Below are positions 3,093-59,000 of a stretch of 64,000 nt of DNA, in pieces. Source of the stretch: Echinarachnius parma (Eukaryota; Echinodermata; Echinoidea; Clypeasteroida; Echinarachniidae); NCBI GenBank assembly GCA_037951105.1, contig JBAMJV010003090.1, forward strand, positions 1 to 64,000, written 5' to 3'. How positions within the stretch are numbered: position 1 is the stretch's first letter; every line of letters begins with the position of its first letter. A program made the position numbers and the translations under genes. The notes under the pieces were generated by a model that had not been told where the DNA came from, did not search any database, and saw only the letters and a list, made by a program, of their open reading frames with translations.

Positions 3093-4345
3093 AGTTTATT
3101 ACCTCACATGTACAAAGTCTTCACAGAAATCATTATTGCAAGAATCCACAGATTGATAACAATCAGCCAGAACAGGCAGGCTTTCGAGCAGGATTCAGAA
3201 CATCAGATCATCTACACACCTTAAGTCAGATCATTGAAAAGGCAAAGGAATATCGTTTCAACATCTGTCTAGGATTCGTCGATTACGAGAAAGCATTTGA
3301 TAGTTTAGATCACCAATAACTATTAGATGCTTTGGAGAAACAGATAACCGATGATAAATACATACGCCTCATCAAAGCTATCTACAAAGACACTAGCGCC
3401 GAAATTCATCTGGAGAATACTACTACCAATGCTTTCAAAATCTTGAAAGGTGTCAGACATGGTGATCCAATTTCTCCGAAACTCTATACAGCAGCCATGG
3501 AAGACGTCTTCAGAAACCTGGATTGGCAATGAAAAGGAATTACAATAAATGGAAAATATCTTAATCATCTTAATCAAGGTTTGCATATGACATTATGCTT
3601 GTTAGCCATGATCCACAGGAACTACAGACAATGATCCATATGAGTTGAGCGTAGAGAGTAAAAAGGCAGGACTCAAAATGAACATTAAAAAGACTAAAGT
3701 AATGATGAGCAACCAGCTACAAGACCATACAATTAAAGTCGATGGCATGACAATCGAGAAGGTGGATAGCTACATATACCTCAGTAAAAACATCACCTTT
3801 GAAAATGAAACGGCAGGAGAAGTGCGAAGAAGAATACAGCTAGCGTGGGTGAAATTTGGGAAACTCAGCATCATATTCAGAGATGAGAATCTTCCAATCT
3901 CCCTCAAAAGACAAACCTTCAATCAGTGTATAATTCCGGTACTATCCTACGGGGCAGAGACTTGGGCAACAACTAAGAAATTGGAAAAGAAGCTTAGAGT
4001 CATAGAAAGAGCAATGAAGAGGATTATGGTAGGAGTTACAAGAAGAGACAAGGTCAGAAACGAGGACCTAAGAGAGAAAACAAATGCCAGGGATATTATA
4101 CAGGAGAAAAAACAAACAAAGAAATGGAGATGGGCAGGCCACCTTGCAAGGCGTAAGGACAACAGATGGACACATAATATAACTAATTGGACACCAAGAA
4201 CACAAACCAGACGAAGAGGCAGACAGAGTAGGCGTTGGATGGATGACATATCAAAGAATTTGGGGGTGTTACATGGATGCGACAAGCACAAGAAAGAAGA
4301 AAATGGAATGGTGATGAAGAGGCCTTCCTTTTGCAGTGGAGAGAC
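3093..4345 (+). mobile_element. RTE-type non-LTR retrotransposon remnant (reverse transcriptase and C-terminal part)
   Basis: Broken reading frames give, in order: an RT segment around 3160-3310 with the words QAGFR and FVDYEKAFDSL; the block GVRHGDPISPKLYTAAMEDV (about 3450-3505); a degenerate active site; and a 234-codon C-terminal frame (3645-4349) with CIIPVLSYGAETWA and WRWAGHLARR. These words are typical of RTE-clade endonuclease/reverse transcriptases. The catalytic F/YADD box reads FAYD (about 3586-3597), and stops and frameshifts separate the blocks, so the copy is dead. The 5' endonuclease part is missing. It ends directly in an (ATAG)n tract, as RTE elements often do. It lies downstream of the only patatin exon found. 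Confidence 0.8.
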
Positions 4346-4377
4346 ATAGGCTAGATAGATAGATAGATAGATTGATT

Positions 4378-4461
<84 letters not shown>
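4346..4461. repeat. (ATAG)n microsatellite
   Basis: A nearly pure tetranucleotide array directly follows the RTE remnant and probably grew from its 3' tail. The long open frame running through it on the minus strand (reading Ile-Tyr-Leu-Ser repeats) is an artefact of the repeat. Confidence 0.95.
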
Positions 4462-4462
<1 letters not shown>

Positions 4463-4558
4463 TGAAAACAAAAAGTATTTTGGGGCTTGGCCGCCAGCCC
4501 GCCCGGTCCCAGTTCGAGTCACACAGCCATGAACAATTTGTATTAATGATCGACTTAC

Positions 4559-4948
4559 TTGTACTGCACCTGCATATGCCAGGCCTTTGTTCCCCCCTCC
4601 CTCAAACACGACGTTCTCGAAAGGGTAATCGTAGGCGTCCATATCCTCCTCCACATCCCCATCGACCTCGTCATCAGCTTCCTCCTCTTTTACTTTGACT
4701 CCGCTAACATTATCGTCGGGAACGACGCCGATGAACGGATCGTCGTCGCTTTTATAGCACATCGGATCTAACTTCGTTTTTCTGTTTTTCTTCTTCGACT
4801 TCGAATCCGTCGGCTTCGTGGACACATTTTCCCCGATACCAGTTGACTGATTACCACGAACGATGTCGCGTTCGACGACCGTATACATTTCGGGTTGACC
4901 TTGCTTCGAAGAACCTCCGGTCGATTCTTTGGTTGCCTTCGAGCCCAT
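4559..4948 (-). CDS. Patatin-like phospholipase, first coding exon (partial gene)
   Basis: This exon encodes 130 codons starting MGSKATKE and ending at CAA|GTAAGT (donor at 4558), phase 0. The first 105 residues or so are hydrophilic, with Lys/Arg and Asp/Glu clusters (SKSKKKNRK near residue 55, an acidic stretch near 85-105). They lead to YPFENVVFEGGGNKGLAYAG at about 107-126. VFEGGGxKG followed by small residues is the oxyanion-hole signature that opens a patatin domain. The catalytic Ser (GxSxG) and Asp would be in later exons, which were not found to the left. The MGSK start could be N-myristoylated (inference). An RTE remnant and an (ATAG)n tract lie directly downstream in the intron. 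A second, partial copy of the exon start is at 5704-5832. Confidence 0.75.
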
Positions 4949-5562
4949 GTTCTAATCCGTCCGATGAACTTAGTCAATTTATCGAAACCTTTGTTTAGCT
5001 CTTTAAAAAACGGTATCGGTTGTTATAATAATATCATACCAGACAGTCAATCTGGCATTCGTTATAGAGAAACATAGATTGAACGACCGGAAAAGGATAT
5101 ATACGATATTTCACTTATGATTGCAATTTGCAAATAAAAATGTACCACAACATTAGTATCAACCATGTGGTTTGACAAACAACGCATTACACTAGATGCG
5201 TATTCAGTAAAGGCCTAGTATGTTATGTCGACTCGATTGAAAAACGAAGGTATTTAATGGTATTGGAAGGTAACGGAATGTAACGGCAGGTAAATTGGTA
5301 AAATTCGATGCGTACGCAGGCTGAGGGAGTAACTACCAAATATACTTATGAATTAGGTATACAGAATGTATTATTTCACCAATTTTTGTAAGTTAATTAA
5401 TTTTGGGGTTGGTTGCCCAAGCTGTACACAGTTGATTGCATCTATTATGTGAGAAATGAAATCAAGCGATGAATCTGGGGCAAGTTGATTCAGGTAACAT
5501 CCCTAACGTCAAGTTTACTAAAAACGCCCACTACAAAGATATTCAGTTTCAGTATCATTTGT
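4826..5562. repeat. Duplicated block, copy A (patatin exon start plus upstream region)
   Basis: This block covers the first coding half of the patatin exon and about 600 bp upstream. It aligns with 5704-6563: both have MGSKATKES, the upstream words GGTATCGGTTGTTATAA and AAACATAGATTGAACGACC, and a GATGCGTACGCAGGCTGAGG motif. Copy A keeps the full exon. Confidence 0.8.
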
Positions 5563-5703
5563 GTTATTTCTGCATTTTCAATAAAACATAACAAAAATAA
5601 CAATGAATATATTTTAGCAATATAATGGTAAGTAATGCAAGTAGTAATTCACAAATGAATAAATATGAGTAATCAAAAGAACAATTATCAAGCATATTTC
5701 AAA

Positions 5704-6563
5704 TTCATTTTCCCCGATGTCAGATGACTGATTCCCGTGATCGATGTCGCTTTCGACGACCGTATTTTTTTCGGATGGACTTAATTCCTTCGAAGAATCT
5801 CCGATCGATTCTTTGGTTGCCTTCGAGCCCATGTTCTAATCCGTCCAATGTACTTAGTCAATTGATCAAAAGATATGTTTGGGCGTTTGGCACTTTAGAA
5901 ACGGTATCGGTTGTTATAAAGATATCTACCAGAAAGTCAATCTGGCATGCGTTATAGAGAAACATAGATTGAACGACCAGAAAAGGATATATATATATAC
6001 GATATTTCACTTATGATTTCAATTTGCAAATAAAATTTTACCACAACATAAAGTATCAACCATGTGGTTTGACAAACAACGCATTACACTAGATGCGTAT
6101 TCAGTAAAGGCCTAGTATGTTATGTCGAGTCGTTTGAAAAACGAAGGTATGTAATGGTATTGGAAGGTAGCGGAATGTAACGGCAGATATTTGTAAAATC
6201 CGATGCGTACGCAGGCTGAGGGATTAATCCCTTCGAATTGCTAACAGTCGAATGCATAATTCAAATCAGTACCGCCCAATACAATTTTTCGCAACGATAC
6301 ATCATAACTATTTTAGCCTATTATGAAAGTACAACTACCAAAGATATTTATGAATTAGGTATAAATAATTCGTTATTTCATCCCTTTGTGTGTTTTGGGG
6401 TGGTTGCCCAAGCTGTATACCAGTCCTGTATACACAGGAGATTCCATTCTATTCAACCGATGAATCCGGGCCAAGTTGCTTTGAACAAGCAACATCCTAC
6501 ATAATATAAAACAATTATACACATAATAAAACACCCACTACAAGGATATTATATGTGTATCAT
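5704..6563. repeat. Duplicated block, copy B, with truncated patatin first exon
   Basis: On the minus strand a frame starts at 5832 (MGSKATKESIGDSS). It stays alignable with the functional exon for about 42 codons, to the GGGGAAAATG shared sequence near 5710, then diverges with no good donor at the break. Copy B carries an extra insert of roughly 85 bp near 6228-6312. It could act as an alternative promoter or first exon only if spliced from an internal donor. A broken partial duplicate is likelier. Confidence 0.75.
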
Positions 6564-42058: not shown

Positions 42059-45000
42059 CTGGGCATTCAGAGAAAAAAAGTAAACAAAAATATTATGTCA
42101 ATTGCATTTATCCTCCAGCAAGATATGTTACGCATTTCTCGCGTAGCTGAGCAACCTTAGCAAAATGGGGTTTACTAAGGTAGTGATTCCCCCACTAGTT
42201 TGCACATAGACCTATGGTTTTAGCAGAGATGGACGACTTCCCTTGAGTGGGAAATAAACACAGCGTGAGTTTGTTGACAGTAGAGATTAACAATCTCAGA
42301 AACTGAGAAGAATGAAGTCAACCAAGGAAGGAAAGAGGACCACCTAGATATAATTGAACACGCACGCTCGTGGTCCTCACGACCTACGCGACAAATACAT
42401 CGTGAATGTATTCACTACCTCTGCTCTCTACCAAGGTGTATAAATGGGGAGCGGGAAGAATAGGAAACGTGGTTTCTTGGGACTGTATGCGCCTAACAGT
42501 CGACTGGCCCGAATCTTCCCTAGGGAGTGGAAAATGTGAACTTTGTGTGCAGTCCGAGTGATTGCAGTGTGTATTCGTTGACCGGGGTAATAATAATAAA
42601 TTTAATGTGCTAAGTTACTCACATGAATAGCGCTATATATAATACTAGTATTATTATATTCGTATCATCATAATTGTAATCAAATCGTGCAAAACATACA
42701 TCAGACGGAACCATAATTCACAGAGTATGTGTCTCATTTCTCTTCACTCTCTATATGTTATACGATCATCAAAATGTCTTCCATCCATGGGTTTATACAG
42801 TGCCATACACCATCTACAATATACAGGTATATTATCAGATTACAGAAATACATTTCTTTAACCGAAAAATGCTCATTTCATCAAATCTTTGTCAGTTTTT
42901 GCACATGTCAATAAAGTTAACCCATTCCCTAGATTCTTAAATCTCCATAGACTTTGTACACAACCCATTCGGTTCCCGCAGTCCAGGGGTTAATAGATCC
43001 CTTTTATCCACTTACAGTCTCTGAAGAGAATGTGTTCATCTCAAAGAGGGGCTGCTGGATGTTGATGTCTTGCTCCACACCGATCCCCATTCGAGCTTTC
43101 GAGGACTATGGATGGATAAATAATAATTGGAATTAAAGAGGATGTGATAATCACGACATCAAGTGAAATGAAAGTCATATTTATTGTCATCTTAGAATAG
43201 AGTTGATCAAAATGTTGCATGTCTTGATACACACCGATCCCCATTCGAGCTTTCGGGGACTGCGCATGGATAAATAATCATTGGATTTAAAAAGGATGTG
43301 ATTTCAGTGGAACCTGGTTATAAAGAGCTGTGATATAAAAAGCCCTGTTTAAATTCTTGGTTTTGTTACCCTGATACAACAAGATACCTGATATAACAAG
43401 TCAATTCTCATGGTCCCAAGGATCTCGTTATAAAGAGGTTCCACTGTATCTGATATAACAAGTCAATTCTCATGGTCCCAAGGATCTCGTTATAATGAGG
43501 TTCCACTGTATCTGATATAACAAGTCAATTCTCATGGTCCCAAAGATCTCGTTATAATGAGGTTCCACTGTATCTGATATAACAAGTCAATTCTCATGGT
43601 CCCAAAGATCTCGTTATAATGAGGTTCCACTGTATCTGATATAACAAGTCAATTCTCATGGTCACAAAGATCTCGTTATAATGAGGTTCCACTGTATCTG
43701 ATATAACAAGTCAATTCTCATGGTCCCAAAGATCTCGTTATAATGAGGTTCCACTGTATCTGATATAACAAGTCAATTCTCATGGTCCCAAGGATCTCGT
43801 TATAATGAGGTTCCACTGTATCTGATATAACAAGTCAATTCTCATGGTCCCAAGGATCTCGTTATAATGAGGTTCCACTGTACCTTGCAAGTGAAACGAC
43901 TACCGTATTTGTCGGTGTATTAACCGCATGGTTTTCCCGACGGAATTACCGACGAAAAGGGGGGTGCGGTTTGTACACGGAGATAGGAAAAATTGCACAA
44001 AAATCTCCACTAGGACAATACAACACGGAACACTATACACGGGACTGTAATAAATTCTAGAATAAAAACGAAGACAAAACAACAAAAATGAATTATATTT
44101 CATAGACCAAAACTCTCTGAAAAAGAATTATGTTTTTACTTATCCTCGGCACATTTTGACCATCTAAAAATCAAGACCTTTACTATCAATTTTTTTTTTT
44201 TTCATGGAAAACCCCAAAAGTTAGGGATGCGGTTAATACACCGGAGCAGGTAATACACCGGCAAATACGGTAAGTAGATTTGATAACAACTAAATGTAAT
44301 TAATGCACATTTATTGCTTTATATATCAAGAAAGTTATAAATGCATCACTTTAAGAAAAAGTCTGAATCATAAGGAAACATTTACAAAAGACATGGTTTG
44401 AATCACTTTATTTTATCTTTATCTACCACTCATTCTCTTCTAGTACTAACCCTAGGTTTTGGAGCTGAAGTTAGCTTACTTGGCAGGATAGCAGGATGAG
44501 TCAAACAAAATATGGCAATTTGCCTCACTGACAAGAAACATACAAAAGAGTATTACTTTTGTGCGTCATGGATACAACCAAACACAATTTAAAGGGATGC
44601 CTGTAAAGTGTCTAACTCCACAAAAATTACTTGGAGCTTCCTCATTTCTCTTCTACTGCATTGTTTAGCTTAGTAGAAGAATAAAATAGGGTTATATTTT
44701 TTCAAATGCCCCTTAAGTATGACGATATCTATCATTCAGCTCAAAAGCGTTAATGAACGGTCATAAACCTCATTAACGTCCGTTGTAAAAGCTGACGCAT
44801 ATTTTCGCTTTTTTAAACAGGAAAGCAGTGTTCTTTTTCAATGAAACTTTCACACTTCATTCGAACATATCAATGATTTTGGTACAGGATTGAAGTCTTA
44901 AATGTCATTTTGGGCAATATCTGACACTTCACAGGTGCACCATTAAGGAATCTAAAGCACTTTCACCTATTCAACAAAATGCAAACTAGATAAATTCTTT

Positions 45001-46494
45001 CATGTAAAATTGAAATACCTTAACACTGTAGTGTACTCTTACCATTGTATCTCTCATCATACGCACTGGATCACTCTCCACATGCACTGCAACCTATGGG
45101 GAACAAACAAATTGAAGAACATTGCCAAGTTAAACATTTAAATTCTCATGAGGCAGATAAATAGCAAAAATGTTTCACTTGATTGCGATGTACATGTACA
45201 TGTAGGTCTATACAGGGTGGCTCCAAAAAGAACGGAACGGGGCACTTCCCAAAATATAGTAACAAAATAATTATGTCCATCCGATAGGGTGTCCTTTCTA
45301 ATGAAAACAGTAATTTTGGCCGAGTATTTTTTTGTTTAGGGTGATTAGAGTGACACCATGTCAGGTTTCCATTTTTTTCAATTTTTACCAAGTCAGCTGT
45401 GCCTGATAAATCGCACTGTCTGCCCGTCATAGCATCGAACAACCATGCCAAATCTCTCGGCACACAGCTGAATGCACACTAACAATAGCGCGCGTATTGC
45501 TCGTTGTTTGATGCTATCACGGGCAGTAAGTGCGATTTATCAGGCACTGACTTGGTAAAAATTGACAAAAATGGGAACCTGACATGGTGTCACTCAGAGC
45601 ACCCTAAAGCAATAACTACACGACCAAAATTACTGTTCTTGATATCGTTTTTCATTGGAAAAGATACCCTATCCGATGGACATAACTATTTTGTTACTAT
45701 ATTTTGGGAAGTGTCCCGTTCCGTTATTTTGGGGCCACCCTGTATAATGACCGAGGAAATAATGTCAAGTGCTTAGAGATAGAAATGACCCATATTGCAC
45801 AAAGCGATAGCTGAGGATAATGATAATTTCTACAACACGTGACTGACGTAACTGTGCTTAAATTTAATAAATCAATATAAACAAATTGTATGAGTGATAA
45901 AATAGGCACTACATATAAATACAATTATCATTATTATTATTATCATAATCTGACCTGCTCTCTCAGTGCTTCTAGTCTCCTTTCTCTCTCCTCTTCCTCC
46001 TCCTCCAACCTTCTCTCTTCCTCTCTCCGCTCCTCTTCTGTTATTATTATTATTATTATTATATTCTCACCTGCTCTCTCAGTGCTTCTAGTCTCCTTTC
46101 CCTCTCCTCTTCCTCCTCCTCCAACCTTCTCTCTTCCTCTCTCCGCTCCTCCTATATTATTATTATTATTATTATATTCTCACCTGCTCTCTCAGTGCTT
46201 CTAGTCTCCTTTCTCTCTCCTCTTCCTCCTCCTCTAACCTTCTCTCTTCCTCTCTCCGCTCCTCTTCTGTTATTATTATTATTATTATTATATTCTCACC
46301 TGCTCTCTCAGTGCTTCTAGTCTCCTTTCCCTCTCCTCTTCCTCCTCCTCCAACCTTCTCTCTTCCTCTCTCCGCTCCTCTTCTGTTATTATTATTATAT
46401 TCTCACCTGCTCTCTCAGTGCTTCTAGTCTCCTTTCTCTCTCCTCTTCCTCCTCCTCCAACCTTCTCTCTTCCTCTCTCCGCTCCTCTTCTGTA

Positions 46495-46525
<31 letters not shown>

Positions 46526-46725
46526 TCTCACCTGCTCTCTCAGTGCTTCTAGTCTCCTTTCTCTCTCCTCTTCCTCCTCCAACCTTCTCTCTTCCTCTCT
46601 CCGCTCCTCCTCTATTATTATTATTATTATTATATTCTCACCTGCTCTCTCAGTGCTTCTAGTCTCCTTTCTCGCTCCTCTTCCTCCTCCTCTAACCTTC
46701 TCTCTTCCTCTCTCCGCTCCTCCTC

Positions 46726-46757
<32 letters not shown>

Positions 46758-46960
46758 TCTCACCTGCTCTCTCAGTGCTTCTAGTCTCCTTTCTCTCTCC
46801 TCTTCCTCCTCCTCTAACCTTCTCTCTTCCTCTCTCCGCTCCTCCTCTATTATTATTATTATTATTATATTCTCACCTGCTCTCTCAGTGCTTCTAGTCT
46901 CCTTTCTCTCTCCTCTTCCTCCTCCTCTAACCTTCTCTCTTCCTCTCTCCGCTCCTCCTC

Positions 46961-46992
<32 letters not shown>

Positions 46993-47082
46993 TCTCACCT
47001 GCTCTCTCAGTGCTTCTAGTTTCCTTTCTCTCTCCTCTTCCTCCTCCTCTAACCTTCTCTCTTCCTCTCTCCGCTCCTCCTC

Positions 47083-47117
<35 letters not shown>

Positions 47118-47434
47118 TCTCACCTGCTCTCTCAGTGCTTCTAGTCTCCTTTCTCTCTCCTCTTCCTCCTCCTCCAACCTTCTCTCTTCCTCTCTCCGCT
47201 CCTCTTCTATTATTATTATTATATTCTCACCTGCTCTCTCAGTGCTTCTAGTCTCCTTTCTCTCTCGTCTTCCTCCTCCTCCAACCTTCTCTCTTCCTCT
47301 CTCCGTTCCTCTTCTGTTAGTATTATTATTATTATTATATTCTCACCTGCTCTCTCAGTGCTTCTAGTCTCCTTTCTCTCTCCTCTTCCTCCTCCTCCAA
47401 CCTTCTCTCTTCCTCTCTCCGCTCCTCTTCTGTA

Positions 47435-47465
<31 letters not shown>

Positions 47466-47555
47466 TCTCACCTGCTCTCTCAGTGCTTCTAGTCTCCTTT
47501 CTCTCTCCTCTTCCTCCTCCTCTAACCTTCTCTCTTCCTCTCTCCGCTCCTCCTC

Positions 47556-47590
<35 letters not shown>

Positions 47591-49180
47591 TCTCACCTGC
47601 TCTCTCAGTGCTTCTAGTCTCCTTTCTCTCTCCTCTTCCTCCTCCTCCAACCTTCTCTCTTCCTCTCTCCGCTCCTCTTCTATTATTATTATTATATTCT
47701 CACCTGCTCTCTCAGTGCTTCTAGTCTCCTTTCTCTCTCCTCTTCCTCCTCCTCTAACCTTCTCTCTTCCTCTCTCCGCTCCTCCTCTATTATTATTATT
47801 ATTATTATATTCTCACCTGCTCTCTCAGTGCTTCTAGTCTCCTTTCTCTCTCCTCTTCCTCCTCCTCCAACCTTCTCTCTTCCTCTCTCCGCTCCTCCTC
47901 TATTATTATTATTATTATATTATTATTATATTCTCACCTGCTCTCTCAGTGCTTCTAGTCTCCTTTCTCTCTCCTCTTCCTCCTCCTCTAACCTTCTCTC
48001 TTCCTCTCTCCGCTCCTCCTCTATTATTATTATTATTATATTCTCACCTGCTCTCTCAGTGCTTCTAGTCTCCTTTCTCTCTCCTCTTCCTCCTCCTCCA
48101 ACCTTCTCTCTTCCTCTCTCCGCTCCTCCTCTATTATTATTATTATTATATTATTATTATATTCTCACCTGCTCTCTCAGTGCTTCTAGTCTCCTTTCTC
48201 TCTCCTCTTCCTCCTCCTCTAACCTTCTCTCTTCCTCTCTCCGCTCCTCTTCTATTATTATTATTATATTCTCACCTGCTCTCTCAGTGCTTCTAGTCTC
48301 CTTTCTCTCTCCTCTTCCTCCTCCTCTAACCTTCTCTCTTCCTCTCTCCGCTCCTCCTCTATTATTATTATTATTATTATATTCTCACCTGCTCTCTCAG
48401 TGCTTCTAGTCTCCTTTCTCTCTCCTCTTCCTCCTCCTCCAACCTTCTCTCTTCCTCTCTCCGCTCCTCCTCTATTATTATTATTATTATATTATTATTA
48501 TATTCTCACCTGCTCTCTCAGTGCTTCTAGTCTCCTTTCTCTCTCCTCTTCCTCCTCCTCTAACCTTCTCTCTTCCTCTCTCCGCTCCTCCTCTATTATT
48601 ATTATTATTATATTATTATTATATTCTCACCTGCTCTCTCAGTGCTTCTAGTCTCCTTTCTCTCTCCTCTTCCTCCTCCTCTAACCTTCTCTCTTCCTCT
48701 CTCCGCTCCTCCTCTATTATTATTATTATTATATTATTATTATATTCTCACCTGCTCTCTCAGTGCTTCTAGTCTCCTTTCTCTCTCCTCTTCCTCCTCC
48801 TCCAACCTTCTCTCTTCCTCTCTCCGCTCCTCTTCTGTTATTATTATTATTATTATATTCTCACCTGCTCTCTCAGTGCTTCTAGTCTCCTTTCTCTCTC
48901 CTCTTCCTCCTCCTCCAACCTTCTCTCTTCCTCTCTCCGCTCCTCTTATGTTAGTATTATTATTATTATTATATTCTCACCTGCTCTCTCAGTGCTTCTA
49001 GTCTCCTTTCTCTCTCCTCTTCCTCCTCCTCCAACCTTCTCTCTTCCTCTCTCCGCTCCTCTTCTGTTAGTATTATTATTATTATTATATTCTCACCTGC
49101 TCTCTCAGTGCTTCTAGTCTCCTTTCTCTCTCCTCTTCCTCCTCCTCTAACCTTCTCTCTTCCTCTCTCCGCTCCTCCTC

Positions 49181-49212
<32 letters not shown>

Positions 49213-49539
49213 TCTCACCTGCTCTCTTAGTGCTTCTAGTCTCCTTTCTCTCTCCTCTTCCTCCTCCTCCAACCTTCTCTCCTCCTCTCTCCGCTCCTCC
49301 TCTATTATTATTATTATTATTATATCATTATTATAATCTGACCTGCTCTCTCAGTGCTTCTAGTCTCCTTTCTCTCTCCTCTTCCTCCTCCTCTAACCTT
49401 CTCTCCTCCTCTCTCCGCTCATCCTCTATTATTATTATTATTATTATTATATTCTCACCTGCTCTCTCAGTGCTTCTAGTCTCCTTTCTCTCTCCTCTTC
49501 CTCCTCCAACCTTCTCTCTTCCTCTCTCCGCTCCTTCTC

Positions 49540-49574
<35 letters not shown>

Positions 49575-49782
49575 TCTCACCTGCTCTCTCAGTGCTTCTA
49601 GTCTCCTTTCTCTCTCCTCTTCCTCCTCCTCTAACCTTCTCTCTTCCTCTCTCCGCTCCTCCTCTATTATTATTATTATATCATTATTATATTCTCACCT
49701 GCTCTCTCAGTGCTTCTAGTCTCCTTTCTCTCTCCTCTTCCTCCTCCTCTAACCTTCTCTCTTCCTCTCTCCGCTCCTCCTC

Positions 49783-49817
<35 letters not shown>

Positions 49818-49907
49818 TCTCACCTGCTCTCTCAGTGCTTCTAGTCTCCTTTCTCTCTCCTCTTCCTCCTCCTCTAACCTTCTCTCTTCCTCTCTCCGCT
49901 CCTCCTC

Positions 49908-49939
<32 letters not shown>

Positions 49940-50029
49940 TCTCACCTGCTCTCTTAGTGCTTCTAGTCTCCTTTCTCTCTCCTCTTCCTCCTCCTCTAAC
50001 CTTCTCTCTTCCTCTCTCCGCTCCTCCTC

Positions 50030-50061
<32 letters not shown>

Positions 50062-53000
50062 TCTCACCTGCTCTCTCAGTGCTTCTAGTCTCCTTTCTCT
50101 CTCGTCTTCCTCCTCTTCCAACCTTCTCTCTACCTCTCTCCGCTCCTCCTCTATTATTATTATTATATCATTATTATATTCTCACCTGCTCTCTCAGTGC
50201 TTCTAGTCTCCTTTCTCTCTCCTCTTCCTCCTCCTCCAACCTTCTCTCTTCCTCTCTCCGCTCCTCTTCTGTTATTATTATTATTATATTCTCACCTGCT
50301 CTCTCAGTGCTTCTAGTCTCCTTTCTCTCTCCTCTTCCTCCTCCTCCAACCTTCTCTCCTCCTCTCTCCGCTCATCCTCTATTATTATTATTATTATTAT
50401 TATATTCTCACCTGCTCTCTCAGTGCTTCTAGTCTCCTTTCTCTCTCCTCTTCCTCCTCCTCCAACCTTCTCTCCTCCTCTCTCCGCTCATCCTCTATTA
50501 TTATTATTATTATTATTATATTCTCACCTGCTCTCTCAGTGCTTCTAGTCTCCTTTCTCTCTCCTCTTCCTCCTCCTCCAACCTTCTCTCTTCCTCTCTC
50601 CGCTCCTCCTCTTTCAAGTCCTGCAAATGTTGCCGGAATGCAACCCTAAATGAGAATAGAAATAGAAAGTTATGTTATAATTATACTACTCCTACTAATA
50701 CTAAGCGGACGCATCCGAGATTGAGTTCACAATGCAACGCCATGAATCTTTATCCACCATGGATGTCTGCAAGTCCTCACACTGGATGTCCCTAGCAATG
50801 CAGTCCATGTACAGTTATAATTATGATCAAGTAGATTTTGGTTTATCCAGCTTTTCACCTAGCTGTCCAGTAATCTTCTCTGTTTATAGGGTCCAAGCCA
50901 GTTTAGCTGACAAAGCAACATAGATACATTAGGTTGTGAAACTGTTCTACTTCATAAATGTGCAGGGTTTTGCTATAGCCGGTCACAAAAAGTAAGTCAT
51001 GTTGCATAGACCTAATTCCCATTTCATCATGTTATAATTGTTTGTAAAATCAATGAACATCAAAACTTTGTTCCATACACTCAAAGTAAGAAATATAAAG
51101 AAATAAAACAATGCTTAAAAGAATCAAGGCAGTATAATTGTAAAATAAATATGGAAAATCAAGAATCTGTGATTCTTGGAGCAAAGCTTGTATCGCAGCT
51201 CCAGTGGATGTGACTGTTGACAAATCTTCCGATGTGGAAATGATTTATATTTTCCATTAGATATACAGTGTGACCATACACATTACAGGGCTCTCCTAAA
51301 TATATTTTTGGTCAAGCCCATTTGGGAAAGTAATCAAGAAAAGGCTAGTCTGTAATGAAATGCTACTAGCCTGAAAAGGGTACATTTATAGACTAAGAAC
51401 ATTAATTGTGTCATTGTTAAAAAAACACTAAATACTAAGTGATGATTGACAAAAGAAAGCCGTGAGAAATAAAATAAATAAAAGAGACACAACTTAACAG
51501 AGACCACAAGTATCTCACCTCTCTTTATCATGCTCAGCCTGAACCGCCATAGCTTGCCTCAGCTCTGCAAGCCGTTCTCTCTTCTTGTCTTCCTCTGCTT
51601 CATGCTCCTGGTGGAGACGCTCCTTGTACGAATGGATCTGTTAATTCAATGAAAACATTATTACTATCATCGTTGTCATCATCATCATCATCATCATCAT
51701 CATCACCGTTGTCATCGTCATCATCATCATCAACATCGTCATCATCATCATCATCATCTCCATCAACTCAGTCTGCAAGCCGTTCTCTCTTCTTGTCTTC
51801 CTCTGCGTCATGCTCCTGGTGGATACGTTCCTTGTAGGAATGGATCTGATAATTCATTCAAAACATTTATACTATCATCATTATCATCGTCATTGTCATC
51901 AACATTAACATCAACTCATCCTGCAAGCCGTTATATTTTCTTGTCTTCCTGCGCTTCATGCTCCTGCATTATTATTATCATCATTGTCATCTTTATCATC
52001 ATCATCATCATCAACATCGTCATCATCATCATCATCTCCATCAACTCAGTCTGCAAGCCGTTCTCTCTTCTTGTCTTCCTCTGCGTCATGCTCCTGGTGG
52101 ATACGTTCCTTGTAGGAATAGATCTGATAATTCAATCAAAACATTATCACTATCATCATTGTCGTCATCATCATTAGCAATGCCATTATCATTAATGTAT
52201 TATCCTACAACATCCTGCCACTAGCAGGCAAATTTTTAGCACTACATTTCTACTACACTTATTTCTTTCTGTACTTTCTTTTGTCTCGTAGCCTGAACTT
52301 TAATATCACAGTCTGCTCCCACAAAACACATAAAACAAAAATAAAGATAAAGAAATTAACAAAATTAAGAAAAAACTTACCTTCTCCTTGTCAGCATTCC
52401 TTCTCTTCTCTTTGTACATCCTTCAGTCTTGCTGTCTCAAATATATTCACTACAGTATTATACTATGCTCCCTAAACACACAGGCCCCACAAGGACATGA
52501 ACAGAAAAGAAAACACAAGATAGACAGAACAGAGTAACTCACCTTTTCCTTCTCAACATTCCTCCTCTTGTCTTCCTTCTGTCTCTCTAGCTCCAGTTCT
52601 TTCTGTACGTCCTTCAGTCTGGCTGCCTCAAATGTATTCACTACAATATTTATACTATGCTCCCTAAACACACAGGCCCCAAAAAGACATTGACTGGAAA
52701 CAAGACACAAGAAAGACAGAAGAGAGTAGCTAGCTCACCTTTTCCTTTTCAACATTCCTCCTCTTGTCTTCCTTCTGTCTCTCCAGCTCCAGTTCTTTCT
52801 GTACGTTCCTCAATCTGGCTGCCTCCAGGTCTGCCTCTATCCTCATAGCCTCCATCTTCTGCTCCCGCCATAACTCCACCTGTTCAAACAAGGGGGAAAA
52901 TGATTGCATATGTTACATGTACATGAAAGAACATAATAAAAGTTGGACATACACAGACAAAAACATGTGAATGCACAATAATTCATTTCTAGTTCACATT

Positions 53001-56000
53001 GGTTTTGTTTTATGTATATATCTTAATGTTCAATTATATCTTCTTCTTTTCTTTTTTTTTGGGGGGGGGGGGGGAGGGGGGGGGGGGGTAGGGGGAGGGG
53101 GGCAAATCTTCTTTTTAAAAATCTTGATTAAACAAAATTAAGGGGCTTCAGGGACGAGCACCGTACGAGGGTTTTCTATAGCTCAGTCGGTAGAGCACCG
53201 GTCTAGCAATCCGGAGGTCTCGGGTTCGAATCCCGATGGAATCCCATTTTCTTTGCCCTTTTTTAATCACAATATATTTCTGGTCAGTTTCTCTATATGT
53301 TTGAATTAATTTGTTTTAATCTTGTCAAAATCCATTTATGTACATGGAATAAATTTGTCCAACTCAGTGACTATACCAGGAGCAGTTCATATATTTCTTC
53401 TCAATCAAACCTTTTGATGCAGCTGTTGACAGATCTCCTCCTGTTTGTTTTTGTTGATAGCAGCTACCTCCTCTAGCTCTGAGGCGAGGCAGGCATCGGC
53501 AAAGATGGCGGCTGCCTTCTCGTAGAGCTCTTGTTTGTCCCTTGCCCAGCAGTCCACCAGAGTCCGACGTAACCGTGTGTAGTAGTGATGCTTGATCGTC
53601 CAGTTCTCATGATCAACCTGTAAATAAATAATAGAGCAGATAAAGGTAAAATTTCATAGAAATCATTCCAATTTTAATACAATTAGGTACAAACTTGGTA
53701 TGCAACCCAACTTGGGGATACTAAGCTTTTCAGAAAAAAACACTTAGACAAGCAAAAATCCAACATGGCAGCCATTTTCCAAGATAATAGTTGTGCTTGA
53801 TCGTCCAGTTCTCATGTTTAACCTGAAAATAAACAAGGATAGATCCAACAAGATACTTTGAATAAATAATGAAATTAGAGAAAAAATAGAAAGTGTCAAA
53901 ATGCAGACGTAGCCGTGTGTAGTAATGGTGCTTGATTGGCAATTTATCATTTGCAACCTGCAGATAAACAGAATGATAAATTAAACATGGTTTTAAAATA
54001 AAATGTTTCCAGTTGTTGCATTAAATTTAAAACACCCGGCATTTATCCTCCATGGCACAGCCAATCTAAATGGAGAATTAACGCTGCTGCCATAGTCGTT
54101 GCCGTAATTATAGACATTTATAAAAAGTGGACAGTTTATAAGAGACTTAACTTGATTTCTTTTGAAACAGCTAGTTTGCATATACTATCAATGTATAGCA
54201 GTCTCCTGATTGGATGTCTCTTGGATACATAAGCCCAATGGGCTAATAACACATTAGATCATTCTAGATTAGAGTCTGTTTGCATAAATAATACATTTTT
54301 TTTAAATCAAAAAAGTTAAGTCTTTCCCGTGCCAATTTTGTCACATAAGGCGGCGCCCATCTCTGATTCATTAGCCCTAGTTAGGCCACACGTTTACTAA
54401 ATGTAGCGAAAGCTACACAAGGGGGCCAGTCCTCTGGTAACTCGTGTGATTAACGTTCCCTTTTCCATACTACGAATGCTGAGCGCCTGGCTAGAAGGCA
54501 GAATTAAGGTACCATTTTTAACATTCTTTGGTATGACCCTGTATGGGTTTGAACCCGGGACCTCCCGTGCATGAGGCGGACACTGTTTGAAAAAAGATTT
54601 TGAAAATAAGTAGAGGTTTAATTACCAGTTCTGATCGTGGTTTCTTAGGGAACTGTTTCCTGAGTCTGTCGATGTACAGCATTCTTCTGTTCTTCATATC
54701 CCTTGGGTACATGGCCACAATGTTCTCGTAGGTCAAGTGGTCATCTCGCGTCCAGCTTCCGTATGGATGTCTAAAATAAAATGAGTTGTAAATTTATGAG
54801 TTGTAAATTTATGTTGATTGGACAGAGAAATAATAGTTACTTACAAGGCAAAAGCATGCAAAGAAAGAATATTCTTTGTAATACTTCTCTAATACAGTGG
54901 AACCTCGTTATAAAGAGGACGGATATAACAAAACCATCTTATAACAAGGTAATTTTGCTGGTCCCCGCTCTTTAAATTGCTTTGTTTTTTTACCCTGAAA
55001 TAATGAGAAACCTGATATAACAAGGTAATATCCATGGTCCCAAGGACCTCATTATAATGAGGTTCCACTGTATAATATTCAGATTCAATGTTCCAAATGG
55101 ATGCTCTAACATGAAATGAGGTGTAAACATTTAATTGAAATAGGATTGAGAATAGTTACTTGCAAGCCCAAGGCATGCAAATAATTAACCTTCTGTTAAT
55201 ACTACTACTAAAAGTAATACTACTATTGATCTAACATTGTTCTACACAGAACATATTTGTGTGTAACTAATACCAAAGCTTCTAACACACTAATACTCAT
55301 CTCATTGTAACACATTATAACCAACCCCCCCCCCCCCCCCACCACCACAGTTAACCATTTCGCATACCAATTGACTTACATATAAGCATGTCTTTGTGCC
55401 TCCTATCCAGGTCTCTCAGTCTGTCCAGGTATCTCTCATCTAGAGACACAAATTCCCAGAGTACGGCATCCCTCAGAGTGATGTCAGGGCATTCCATCAA
55501 CCTCATCCCGCCTCTTACACATCATCAACAACCCCCTGCTCTAACACCATTACTCCTCCCGTTGTAACACATTATAACTCTAGCTCCTCCACTACAGTTA
55601 ACTATTGCGCATGCCAATTAACTCACATAAGCATGTCTTTGTGCCTCCTATCCAGGTCTCTCAGTCTGTCCAGGTATCTCTCATCTAGAGACACAAACTC
55701 CCCGAGGACGGCATCCCTCAGAGTGATGTCAGGGCATTCCAGGACCTCAGCCTCCATGGGGATACCTTCCATCACTTGCTTCTCTGTTCCTGCAAATTAA
55801 AGGAGGGTTGATGTGCACAAAAGTAGATAAAACCATGTTTTTTTTACCGATTCCAGAGAATTTGACAACTCATTTATCATGTGAGAAATATTACACACCT
55901 ACACAGGTATAGAAACAAAAGCTAAAGTTTGTCTCTTTCTCATCTAGGGAGTGATGTCAGGGCATTCCAAGACCTCAGCCTCCATAGAGATACCCTCCAT

Positions 56001-59000
56001 AACCTGCTTCTCTGTGCCTACAAATGAAAGGAGGGTTGATGTGCAAAAACAGATAAAACCATGATTGTTACCAATTCCAGATAATTTGACAACTCATTTA
56101 TCATATGAGAAATGACACCTACACAGGTATAAAAACAAAAGGTACAGTTTGTCTCTTTCTCAGCTAGAGAATGATGTCTGGGCATTCCAGGACCTCAGAC
56201 TCCATGGGGATACCCTCCATGACTTGCTTCTCTGTGCCTACAAAGAAAGGAGGGTTGATGTGCAAAAAACAGATAAAACCATGTTTTTTACCAATTCGAG
56301 ATAATTATCAAGCCTGCTAAAAATACAATAAAAACAATACAAAAATGTGTGATACTATTTATTCATATATTCAATAATACCCCTTGCATATTATATTAAC
56401 TCTTCAAATCTACAACACAACATTGTAAAGTGACTTGAATTTGACAGGCACAAACTCCCCAATGACTGCATCCCTTACGAGTGATGTCAGGGCATTCGAG
56501 CACCTCAGCCTCCATGGGGATACCTTCCATCACCTGCTTCTCTCTGCCTACAAATGTGGGGTTTTTGTGCAAAAACAGATACAACCATGTTTTTTTACCA
56601 ATTCGTGATAATCGTGATCAATCCACTGAAAAACAATAAAAACAATACAAAAATGTGTGATGTACAAAAATGCTTGGCGGAATGCAATTATTCCTGTTTT
56701 TCCTGCAATAACACAGGCCTAGCATGGCGAGCGTGTGGGCAAATTTGTTTGGACAGTCCGCACAGACGTCATAATTCGCGAAGCATGTCGGGTAGTTACA
56801 CAAACATGGCCGTTCCCATCATCTTTTGCCGCCGTAAAAATTAGTAAAATTTGGGTATGTTCACAGAAGGATTTCATGGGATCAAAGTCATGTATCAAAT
56901 TAAATGTCTGTTCACCCTCTAAATGATTATAGTAGCCGAAAGCCATAGTTTCATTGTCCTTTAATGGATCACTTAAAAAAATGACTCTTACCTAGACTGA
57001 TACCCTGCAGGAATCCCGACTCCAGCTCACTCTCCAAAGCCCACTGTTCATTCTCCAGCTGCTTCATCACTTCAGCTTGTTGCTGCTTGACATTCTCAAT
57101 CACATCGCAGATCTCTGCGTGCTGAGCCTCGAGCTCATAATCACCTCGTTGAGCTTTGGTCTTGTTCCTGGCCAGCCAGATTTTCAGATCATCCTGAGAA
57201 AAAATGAAAAACATTAATGCGTTGCTGTAGTTGTTTGAAATTTTCAATCACATCGCAGATCTCTATGTGCAGTGCCTCGAGTTCATAATTGCTTTGTTGA
57301 GCTGTGTTTTGTCCCTGGCCAACCAGATTTTCAGATCATCCTGAGAAAAGACGTTCAAAAGATCGAAAACATGGTAAATTCTGTGAAAAAAAGGAAAAGC
57401 CATTAATGGTTGCCGTTGATGACATTTTCAATCACATCGCAGATCTCTGCGTGCTGTGCCTCGAGTTCATAATTGCTTTATTAAACTTTGTTTTGTCCCT
57501 GGCCAACCAGATTTTCAGATCATCCTTGGAAAAGACATTGAAAGGATTCATTGGTCAATTCTGTGTAAACAAAATGAAACGCCATTAATGGTTGCTGTTC
57601 TTTGACATTTGCAATTATATTTTAAATCTCTATGTGCTGTGCCTCAGGATCATAATTGCCTCCTGAGAAAAGACATTGAAAGGATAGAAAACATGGTACA
57701 CTCTGTGAAAAAGACCTGAAAAGCTTCAATTATATCGCAGAGTATCTGCGTGCTGTGCCCGCGGCTAGTATGCTCCCCGGGGAGTTGAGCATGTTGACAA
57801 GGTAATTATGCGGGTCTGAGCTGTACCAAATGACCAGGGATAATAATAAGCGGTTAGAGGCTGTTCTGGATTGATTAGGCGCTATTGATCTATTATTACT
57901 AGTATTACCTTAAGAGCCCAGACAGGATCTGCGCTGGCTTTCTTGAACCGCTCCAACTCGTCATCTAGCTGCATCTTATAATCCTCAGCCTCCAGCATGA
58001 ACATGGCGATAGATGAGGCCTCCGACGAGCCTTGCATGAACCCCCTCTCTTGGTCACCCTCCCTCCGATGCCGCTCTCCGTCCAGCTTTGTTAGCTCTCG
58101 CTGCCACACGGTGCGGTGCTGCTTCAGAAGAGTGTTCTCTTTACTTGCTTTGGAGAATTCCTGAAGAAAATAATAATAGTAGGGTTAATAATAGTGTAAA
58201 GCGCTTTATAGAGATGATATTGTATCATATTAGGCACTATATAAATCATACATAAATCATATTATTTAAAACAAACAAGGATAAAGAATAAGAAATGCAA
58301 GTAAGTATTAAATGAAAGAGAAATCATGGAACATGTTACAAGTGGATAATTTAGGAGCATTTTTTAAAATCAGTTTAGAACTGCCATGTATATAATGTAA
58401 ATTAGATACAGTTAACCCGTTGCTTACGGGAACCTGGTGGGCTATGTACAAAGTCTATGGGGATTTGAGAATTTTGTAGTGAATGGGTTAAAAAGCACAG
58501 AACTAAGATACTTTCATAAAACAAGCCCCTCTTCTCCAAGCTGATCATTGAAACTTCATTGTTTTTAAACAAATTAAATGGCCTTGGCTCAGAAACTGGT
58601 AAAAAAAGGTTCCCATTTTTTAACAGGCCTCATGCAAACCTATAAACAATAGTTTTCAGGGTCAACAGGTTAAAGACTGAATTAAGAAGCCAAAGCTGTT
58701 TATGTATAATGGTCCATGGGGATGTTTCACAAAGAGTCAAAGTTGAACTTAACTCCAAGTTGGACCTAACTATTATGGAAAGCTGTTATTTCTTTTTGTA
58801 CAATTGTTGAAATAGTTTTTTGAAACGGCATTCATTTTGATAAAAAATAGTTATATTCAATTTGTTATCATCAAAGGGCCTTGAAATCATAGGCCTATAC
58901 ATTTTTGTTAAAAGGCTCAAATACTTGTATTTTGTTGATTTTCAATGTTTTCTTCCAGGGCTATACATGGCTTTCCATAATTGTTAGATCCAACTTAGAG

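Follow-up and report, generated by a model that had tools for sequence, protein, structure and literature searches.

In a CCDC148-like gene of the echinoid Echinarachnius parma, the end of one exon is repeated downstream together with its 5' splice site (donor) and the start of the following intron, giving 40 consecutive donors beside a single complete exon. The gene spans approximately 59730 to 41908 on the minus strand of the 64,000-nucleotide stretch analysed here (the window; positions 1 to 64,000 of contig JBAMJV010003090.1, designated C3089, of the 1.2-Gb assembly GCA_037951105.1). The array is very probably a neutral splice-junction minisatellite that arose by local tandem duplication of a kind common in this genome, was amplified by unequal exchange and is tolerated through exon definition. 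This explanation draws on the organization of the units, on an exact recombination scar that distinguishes the array from its counterpart on a second contig, and on partial copies of other exons in this and other genes.

Organization of the donor array

An initial annotation of the window had described about 40 tandem units averaging 117 bp, and in agreement with it Tandem Repeats Finder (TRF) called a repeat of period 116 at 45924-50612, with 40.0 copies and 90% matches. Dissection by motif gave 40 donors of the pattern CAG/GT[GC]AGA (the slash marks the splice site), which run from 50527 to 45954 on the minus strand within one intron of the CCDC148-like gene and delimit 39 full units of 107–125 bp (mean 4573/39 = 117 bp). 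The near-perfect donor that had been ascribed to nearly all units was found as CAG/GTGAGAATA in 38 of the 40, the remaining two, in units 11 (49342) and 40 (45954) of the window, being GTCAGATTA. Every one of the 38 occurrences of CAGGTGAGAATA on the minus strand of the window lies inside the array, and the plus strand has none. The unit core measures 75 nt in 37 units and 72 nt in 2; core length therefore changes by multiples of three, as had been noted earlier and as expected from slippage in (GAG)n. The RNA of the array is 83% purine. No higher-order repeat emerged within the array, since the one repeated two-unit block that was present is no excess over shuffled unit orders (p 0.20). Among 20 background stretches of 10 kb, TRF returned 22 rows with a period of at least 30, one with at least 10 copies and three with a length of at least 1 kb, and the donor motif was present in the consensus of none of the 22.

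The acceptor (CTCATTTAG/GGTTGC) and the full exon are present at 50645-50528 alone and in no other unit, which bears out the earlier statement that only the parental unit has the rest of the exon and an acceptor. The array begins at the junction of this complete exon, as judged from the genomic sequence by its acceptor and in-frame neighbours. Thus, the preceding exon (H, 51637-51519) ends in AG/, the array exon starts with G and ends in phase 0, and the next exon, to which the intron continues past the array as far as 45093, starts with GTT GCA. Coordinates of these and other features are given in Table 1. Just upstream of the complete exon, the intron at 50684-50760 consists of a dispersed repeat that many other contigs match at 84-97%.

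A human CCDC148 sequence used as tblastn query matched seven exons that follow one another in the expected order along the minus strand (E 8e-13 to 0.21); one further weak match lay on the plus strand (E 3.1). The exon adjoining the array had no tblastn match of its own with the low-complexity filter on and was placed by position, frame and inspection by eye. In total 12 exons were located, those beyond the tblastn matches by frame and splice sites. The assignment of the array to CCDC148 in the initial annotation is supported by the seven matching exons; the exon numbered 10 there is the ninth of the 12 located. A Pfam search with the joined exons returned no family. The mouse protein Ccdc148 is reported to form part of the foundation on which the ciliary central pair stands (PMC11781205).

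Table 1. Positions in the window of the array, of exons of the CCDC148-like gene and of their partial copies
Feature	Position	Strand	Remarks
Donor array (40 donors, 39 full units)	45924..50527	minus	Unit: intron start, (AAT)n, last ~83 nt of exon
Complete exon (I, 118 nt)	50528..50645	minus	Acceptor CTCATTTAG/G at upstream edge, donor CAG/GTGAGAATA at end; codes VAFRQHLQDLKEEERREEERRLEEEEEERERRLEALREQ
Unit 11	49219..49342	minus	Exact chimera of C12239 units 11 and 13, scar of two-unit deletion (unit comparison)
Edge donor GTCAGATTATGATAAT (unit 40)	45924..45954	minus	Reads into unique intron
Next exon downstream of array (VAVHVESDPVRMMRDTM)	45043..45093	minus	Placed by match and frame
Exon C (donor end placed by eye)	57004..57193	minus	Acceptor-side copies upstream, 57533-57420, 57349-57226
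Exon D	55627..55789	minus	Acceptor-side copies upstream, 56596-56446, 56289-56168, 56069-55949; donor-side copy downstream, 55496-55339
Exon F	53411..53617	minus	Two acceptor-side partial copies upstream, 53968-53906, 53836-53785
Exon G	52739..52879	minus	Two donor-side partial copies downstream, 52629-52487, 52412-52376
Exon H	51519..51637	minus	Two acceptor-side partial copies upstream, 52174-52045, 51905-51767, among (GAT)n tracts
Exon K	43016..43105	minus	One acceptor-side copy upstream, 43302-43212

Comparison with a second contig

A second copy of the array was found on contig C12239 of the same genome, with 42 donors as opposed to 40 in the window, an identical exon and near-identical flanks (0-0.2% difference within 2 kb to the left and 2.4 kb to the right of the array). 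Alignment of the two arrays showed six substitutions and a single gap, 246 bases long. In the window, unit 11 is identical to C12239 unit 11 in its first part and to C12239 unit 13 in its second, with the join anywhere within an 11-nt stretch. Once this one deletion of 246 bp is allowed for, 34 of the 39 units are identical, the other 5 each carry a single-base difference, and all agree in length. Such a scar is the pattern left by unequal exchange or single-strand annealing. The neutral alternative offered in the initial annotation, homogenisation by unequal exchange, is therefore strengthened by this exact inter-unit crossover, and agrees with a weak test (below) in which the donors were not extra conserved. 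Collapse or misassembly of the array had been named earlier as a possible refutation. Given that an independent contig bears the same array, and that one exact two-unit event and 5 substitutions across 39 units account for the whole difference between the two versions, misassembly is unlikely.

The two contigs are probably haplotypes (alleles) of one locus, because genes for transfer RNA (tRNA) synthetases likewise occur on paired, collinear contigs; their matches include three such pairs, for one of which a piece lies on a third contig. It is distinctly unlikely that C12239 is instead a paralogous copy of the locus, with the difference in unit number lying between paralogues: identity of ~99.9% near the array as opposed to 91-98% beyond 54 kb, and large indels between C3089 and C12239 on both sides of the array, would suit paralogues, whereas the placement of other genes on collinear contig pairs is as expected where an assembly holds both haplotypes. 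The fall in inter-contig identity at ~54 kb, from about 99.7% to 91-98%, is abrupt, as if the haplotypes were mosaic.

Partial copies of other exons and genes

The array had earlier been treated by itself. What was said of its structure stands, and it is now seen as one of many partial-exon duplications in this and other genes. In the window, 7 of the 12 exons (C, D, F, G, H, I and K, where I is the array exon) have partial copies in a neighbouring intron that include a splice junction. All 10 acceptor-side copies (C 2, D 3, F 2, H 2, K 1) lie upstream of their own exon, and all 42 donor-side copies (D 1, G 2, I 39) lie downstream. The same polarity was noted on C12239, both for acceptor-side copies (7/7 upstream; C 2, F 2, H 2, K 1) and for donor-side copies (47/47 downstream; B 1, D 2, E 1, G 2, I 41); on each contig the counts omit one upstream match to the end of the last exon, an exon without a donor. 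This polarity arises because tandem duplication across one junction leaves one complete exon and a half-exon on the side that has no partner site. Apart from the exon itself, no copy with both splice sites was found within 6 kb, and the duplications would be tolerated because one complete exon remains.

The copy number of exons D, E and I, and weakly that of B, differs between the contigs, which marks the gene as one in flux. Thus, exon D has three acceptor-side copies and one donor-side copy in the window as opposed to none and two, respectively, on C12239, while the donor-side copy of exon E occurs on C12239 only. The copy of exon B, likewise confined to C12239, is a weak 29-nt match (E 3e-5); a 50-nt match extends ~3 nt beyond the donor. 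The segment 43302-43173 of the window is a chimera of two exons, in which a copy of the start of exon K precedes 35 nt that resemble the end of the last exon.

A preference of such duplications for splice junctions, expected from the 7 affected exons of 12, was not borne out within the gene by counts of positions spanned by a same-strand copy within 1.5 kb. Local copies by this criterion were present at 8 of the 22 splice junctions (7 with the low-complexity filter) and at 235 of 800 intron positions outside the array (234 without the filter; Fisher p 0.48). Some of these control positions belong to the same duplications, and a modest junction preference within the gene may exist. In a genome sample of 20 stretches of 10 kb from other contigs, local copies were present at 130-149 of 1200 positions, so that junctions and introns of the gene are both richer in them than the sample. 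An earlier run with less exact exon edges gave 8/22 junctions, 117/400 intron positions and 137-153/1200 genome positions.

Half-exon copies also accompany tRNA-synthetase exons, and the habit is therefore not confined to CCDC148. A search for such exons gave overlapping pieces of one exon close together on several contigs. An exon on C11573 (L035 880-2030) is followed within ~570 bp by six more exon ends with donor-like sequence, GGTGAGTG or GGTGATTG, and preceded by one acceptor-side copy, while an exon on C3355:62701-63900 (L037) has two acceptor-side partial copies upstream. A search with PF01411 yielded similar overlapping exon pieces on C7118, as seen in the match table. Three genes in all were read, the two tRNA-synthetase genes having been picked because their match tables showed overlaps.

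Origin and maintenance of the array

According to the explanation that we favour, a local tandem duplication would first have copied the exon end, the donor and the intron start with its (AAT)n tract, after which unequal exchange among the copies would have raised their number to ~40 and homogenised the units. The array would be the largest of many such duplications in the gene, with others made elsewhere in the genome. Half-exons that have no partner site would be ignored by exon definition, and normal mRNA would be made from the first donor.

Several observations weigh against neutrality. Local copies are about 2.5 times as frequent in the introns of the gene as in the genome sample, an enrichment that is left unexplained by neutrality at a uniform rate. 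Pairing with the 5' end of U1, scored for the 8 located donors of the gene other than those of exons C, D and E, was strongest for the array-type donor at -11.1 kcal/mol, the other seven ranging from -4.9 to -9.7 kcal/mol. The edge donor of unit 40 (-6.9 kcal/mol) is probably the original intron start, since it reads into unique intron. Because the edge donor pairs weakly and the array donor strongly, the array type probably took the place of a weaker donor and then spread, and the contrast between a strong array donor and a weak probable ancestor hints at selection. Finally, 6 of the 11 distinct changes in the unit core are synonymous, as opposed to 20-28% expected (p 0.01-0.06), and 7 of 14 are so when three pre-core changes are added by eye (p 0.01-0.07, depending on mutation model and set). 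This excess is suggestive, and neutral intronic copies should not show it unless variants entered through the expressed exon. It could be reconciled with neutrality if the variants originated in the expressed exon and were amplified only after selection had acted on them there.

The comparison of substitution rates proposed in the initial annotation did not distinguish the donors from the rest of the unit: 1 distinct substitution event was counted in the 9 donor nt and 14 in the other 81 (p = 1.0), a weak test with almost no power. This result bears, to that limited extent, on the possibility that the array acts in cis. In that case ~40 strong U1 sites would hold U1 small nuclear ribonucleoprotein on the nascent RNA and slow or misdirect splicing or retain the transcript, so that unit number would tune CCDC148 mRNA, much as unit number in the 31-bp variable number tandem repeat (VNTR) of human CBS is reported to go with enzyme activity. 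Such an effect, which we consider rather unlikely, would fit the strong pairing of each of the 38 donors and the difference in unit number between the two contigs, and a review states that a higher number of CBS VNTR repeats goes with lower CBS activity (PMC5188458). Counting against it, besides the lack of special donor conservation, half-exons with splice sites also adjoin other exons of the CCDC148-like gene and of other genes.

Predicted consequences for splicing

Because the half-exons have no partner site, exon definition should ignore them and the first donor should be used. From the arrangement of splice signals we infer that only this donor is used and that the copies, each without the other cut signal, are probably harmless and without effect. 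Use of the second donor would add 116 nt that read VRI-stop, and any donor other than the first leads to a stop after three codons, which weakens the earlier suggestion that the array shifts the end of the exon.

Inclusion of repeat exons, also suggested earlier, lost ground as well. It is very improbable that the units serve as small exons with very short introns, from which the protein would gain extra coiled coil rich in E and R. A TAG or CAG does follow (AAT)n in 38 of the 39 units, as TACTAACAG or ATTACAG in some, and core changes lean synonymous (6/11). The 20 nt before the AG of each unit are only 30-40% pyrimidine, however, and no unit has a pyrimidine-rich acceptor. Furthermore, the implied exons are 80, 81 or 83 nt long, and two consecutive exons of the usual 83 nt run into TAG when read from the sequence. 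The implied introns are 24-42 nt, a length that to our knowledge is exceptional in animals.

Suppression of premature polyadenylation (telescripting), a further consequence raised in the initial annotation, requires cryptic polyadenylation signals within reach of U1 sites. Many U1 sites do occur consecutively, but of the two hexamers sought, AATAAA and ATTAAA, the array contains neither and the intron tail a single ATTAAA (45868, 86 nt past the last donor). This function, weakened by that count, is considered very unlikely.

Relation to known systems and significance

Among the papers listed by searches of the open PubMed Central (PMC) literature, no comparable array was recognised, and two CBS cases alone stood out as close. 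In PMC2630376, the polymorphic human VNTR, c.1444_1467+7(16_21) at exon 13/intron 13, is described as having 24 exon and 7 intron bases per unit and 16-21 copies. The array shares with this type of splice-junction VNTR a unit made of exon end, donor and first intron bases, and a start at the junction of a complete exon. Its unit number probably varies between alleles as well, given 40 as opposed to 42 donors on contigs that are probably alleles. It differs in unit length (107-125 bp as opposed to 31 bp), in having about twice as many copies (40-42 donors), in the (AAT)n tract within the unit and in the partial copies of other exons of the gene. The array belongs to the CBS kind, and what sets it apart are the longer unit, a copy number roughly twice as high and the gene-wide background. 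In the second case, CBS 844ins68, PMC2630376 describes a duplicated intron 7/exon 8 junction from which normal mRNA is still made, with the distal site favoured and the upstream exon piece removed. That text calls the sites donors, although the junction of intron 7 with exon 8 is an acceptor and Romano 2002, which it cites, has 3' splice site in its title. Common to 844ins68 and the array are a duplicated splice junction and normal mRNA, the latter presumed here. In contrast, 844ins68 has one extra copy on the acceptor side while the array has ~40 on the donor side.

In the AG/GT model of intron gain, duplicated copies form a new working intron. The underlying event is tandem genomic duplication, inside a gene, of a segment containing AG/GT (PMC4974935, PMC3443670). 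Unlike such segments, the copies of the array are purine-rich before each CAG and lie inside an existing intron, and the usable acceptor per copy that this model needs was not found in the sequence, given the pyrimidine content before each AG and the purine content of the RNA stated above. A recursive splice site consists of a pyrimidine tract followed by CAG/GT; CAG/GT is present in the units, but the preceding ~20 nt (AGACTAGAAGCACTGAGAGAG) are mostly purine, and this candidate was rejected.

With ~40 near-identical donors beside one complete exon, the locus constitutes a natural experiment on the choice of the spliceosome among equal donors. Graded cases, from 1 to 41 extra sites on the donor or acceptor side and some of them variable between contigs, make exon definition testable without engineering. 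The locus also illustrates how introns can accumulate splice signals by tandem duplication without loss of the capacity for normal mRNA, an initial stage on the way to new exons or introns. A wider proposal, which we regard as unlikely, is that the genome is full of half-exons with one splice site that stem from ongoing local tandem duplication and vary between haplotypes, and that here the process has escalated to 40 strong donors, with the efficiency of exon splicing governed by their number. The locus would then be a natural dose series in which donor competition and exon definition could be followed.

Additional observations

Another intron of the CCDC148-like gene contains a repeat of 8 copies with a 62-bp unit and 98% identity (window 43388-43882). 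Elsewhere in the window, a patatin-like open frame at 3950-4951 on the minus strand has an apparent partial copy of its start on the upstream side, at 5617-5835 (3950-5835 overall). The mitochondrial COX1 frame on C14600 makes an echinoderm or hemichordate likely as the source, because its codons, compared with conserved residues, follow the echinoderm code: TGA stands at W, AGA at sites suited to S, ATA at sites suited to I and a single AAA at a site suited to N.

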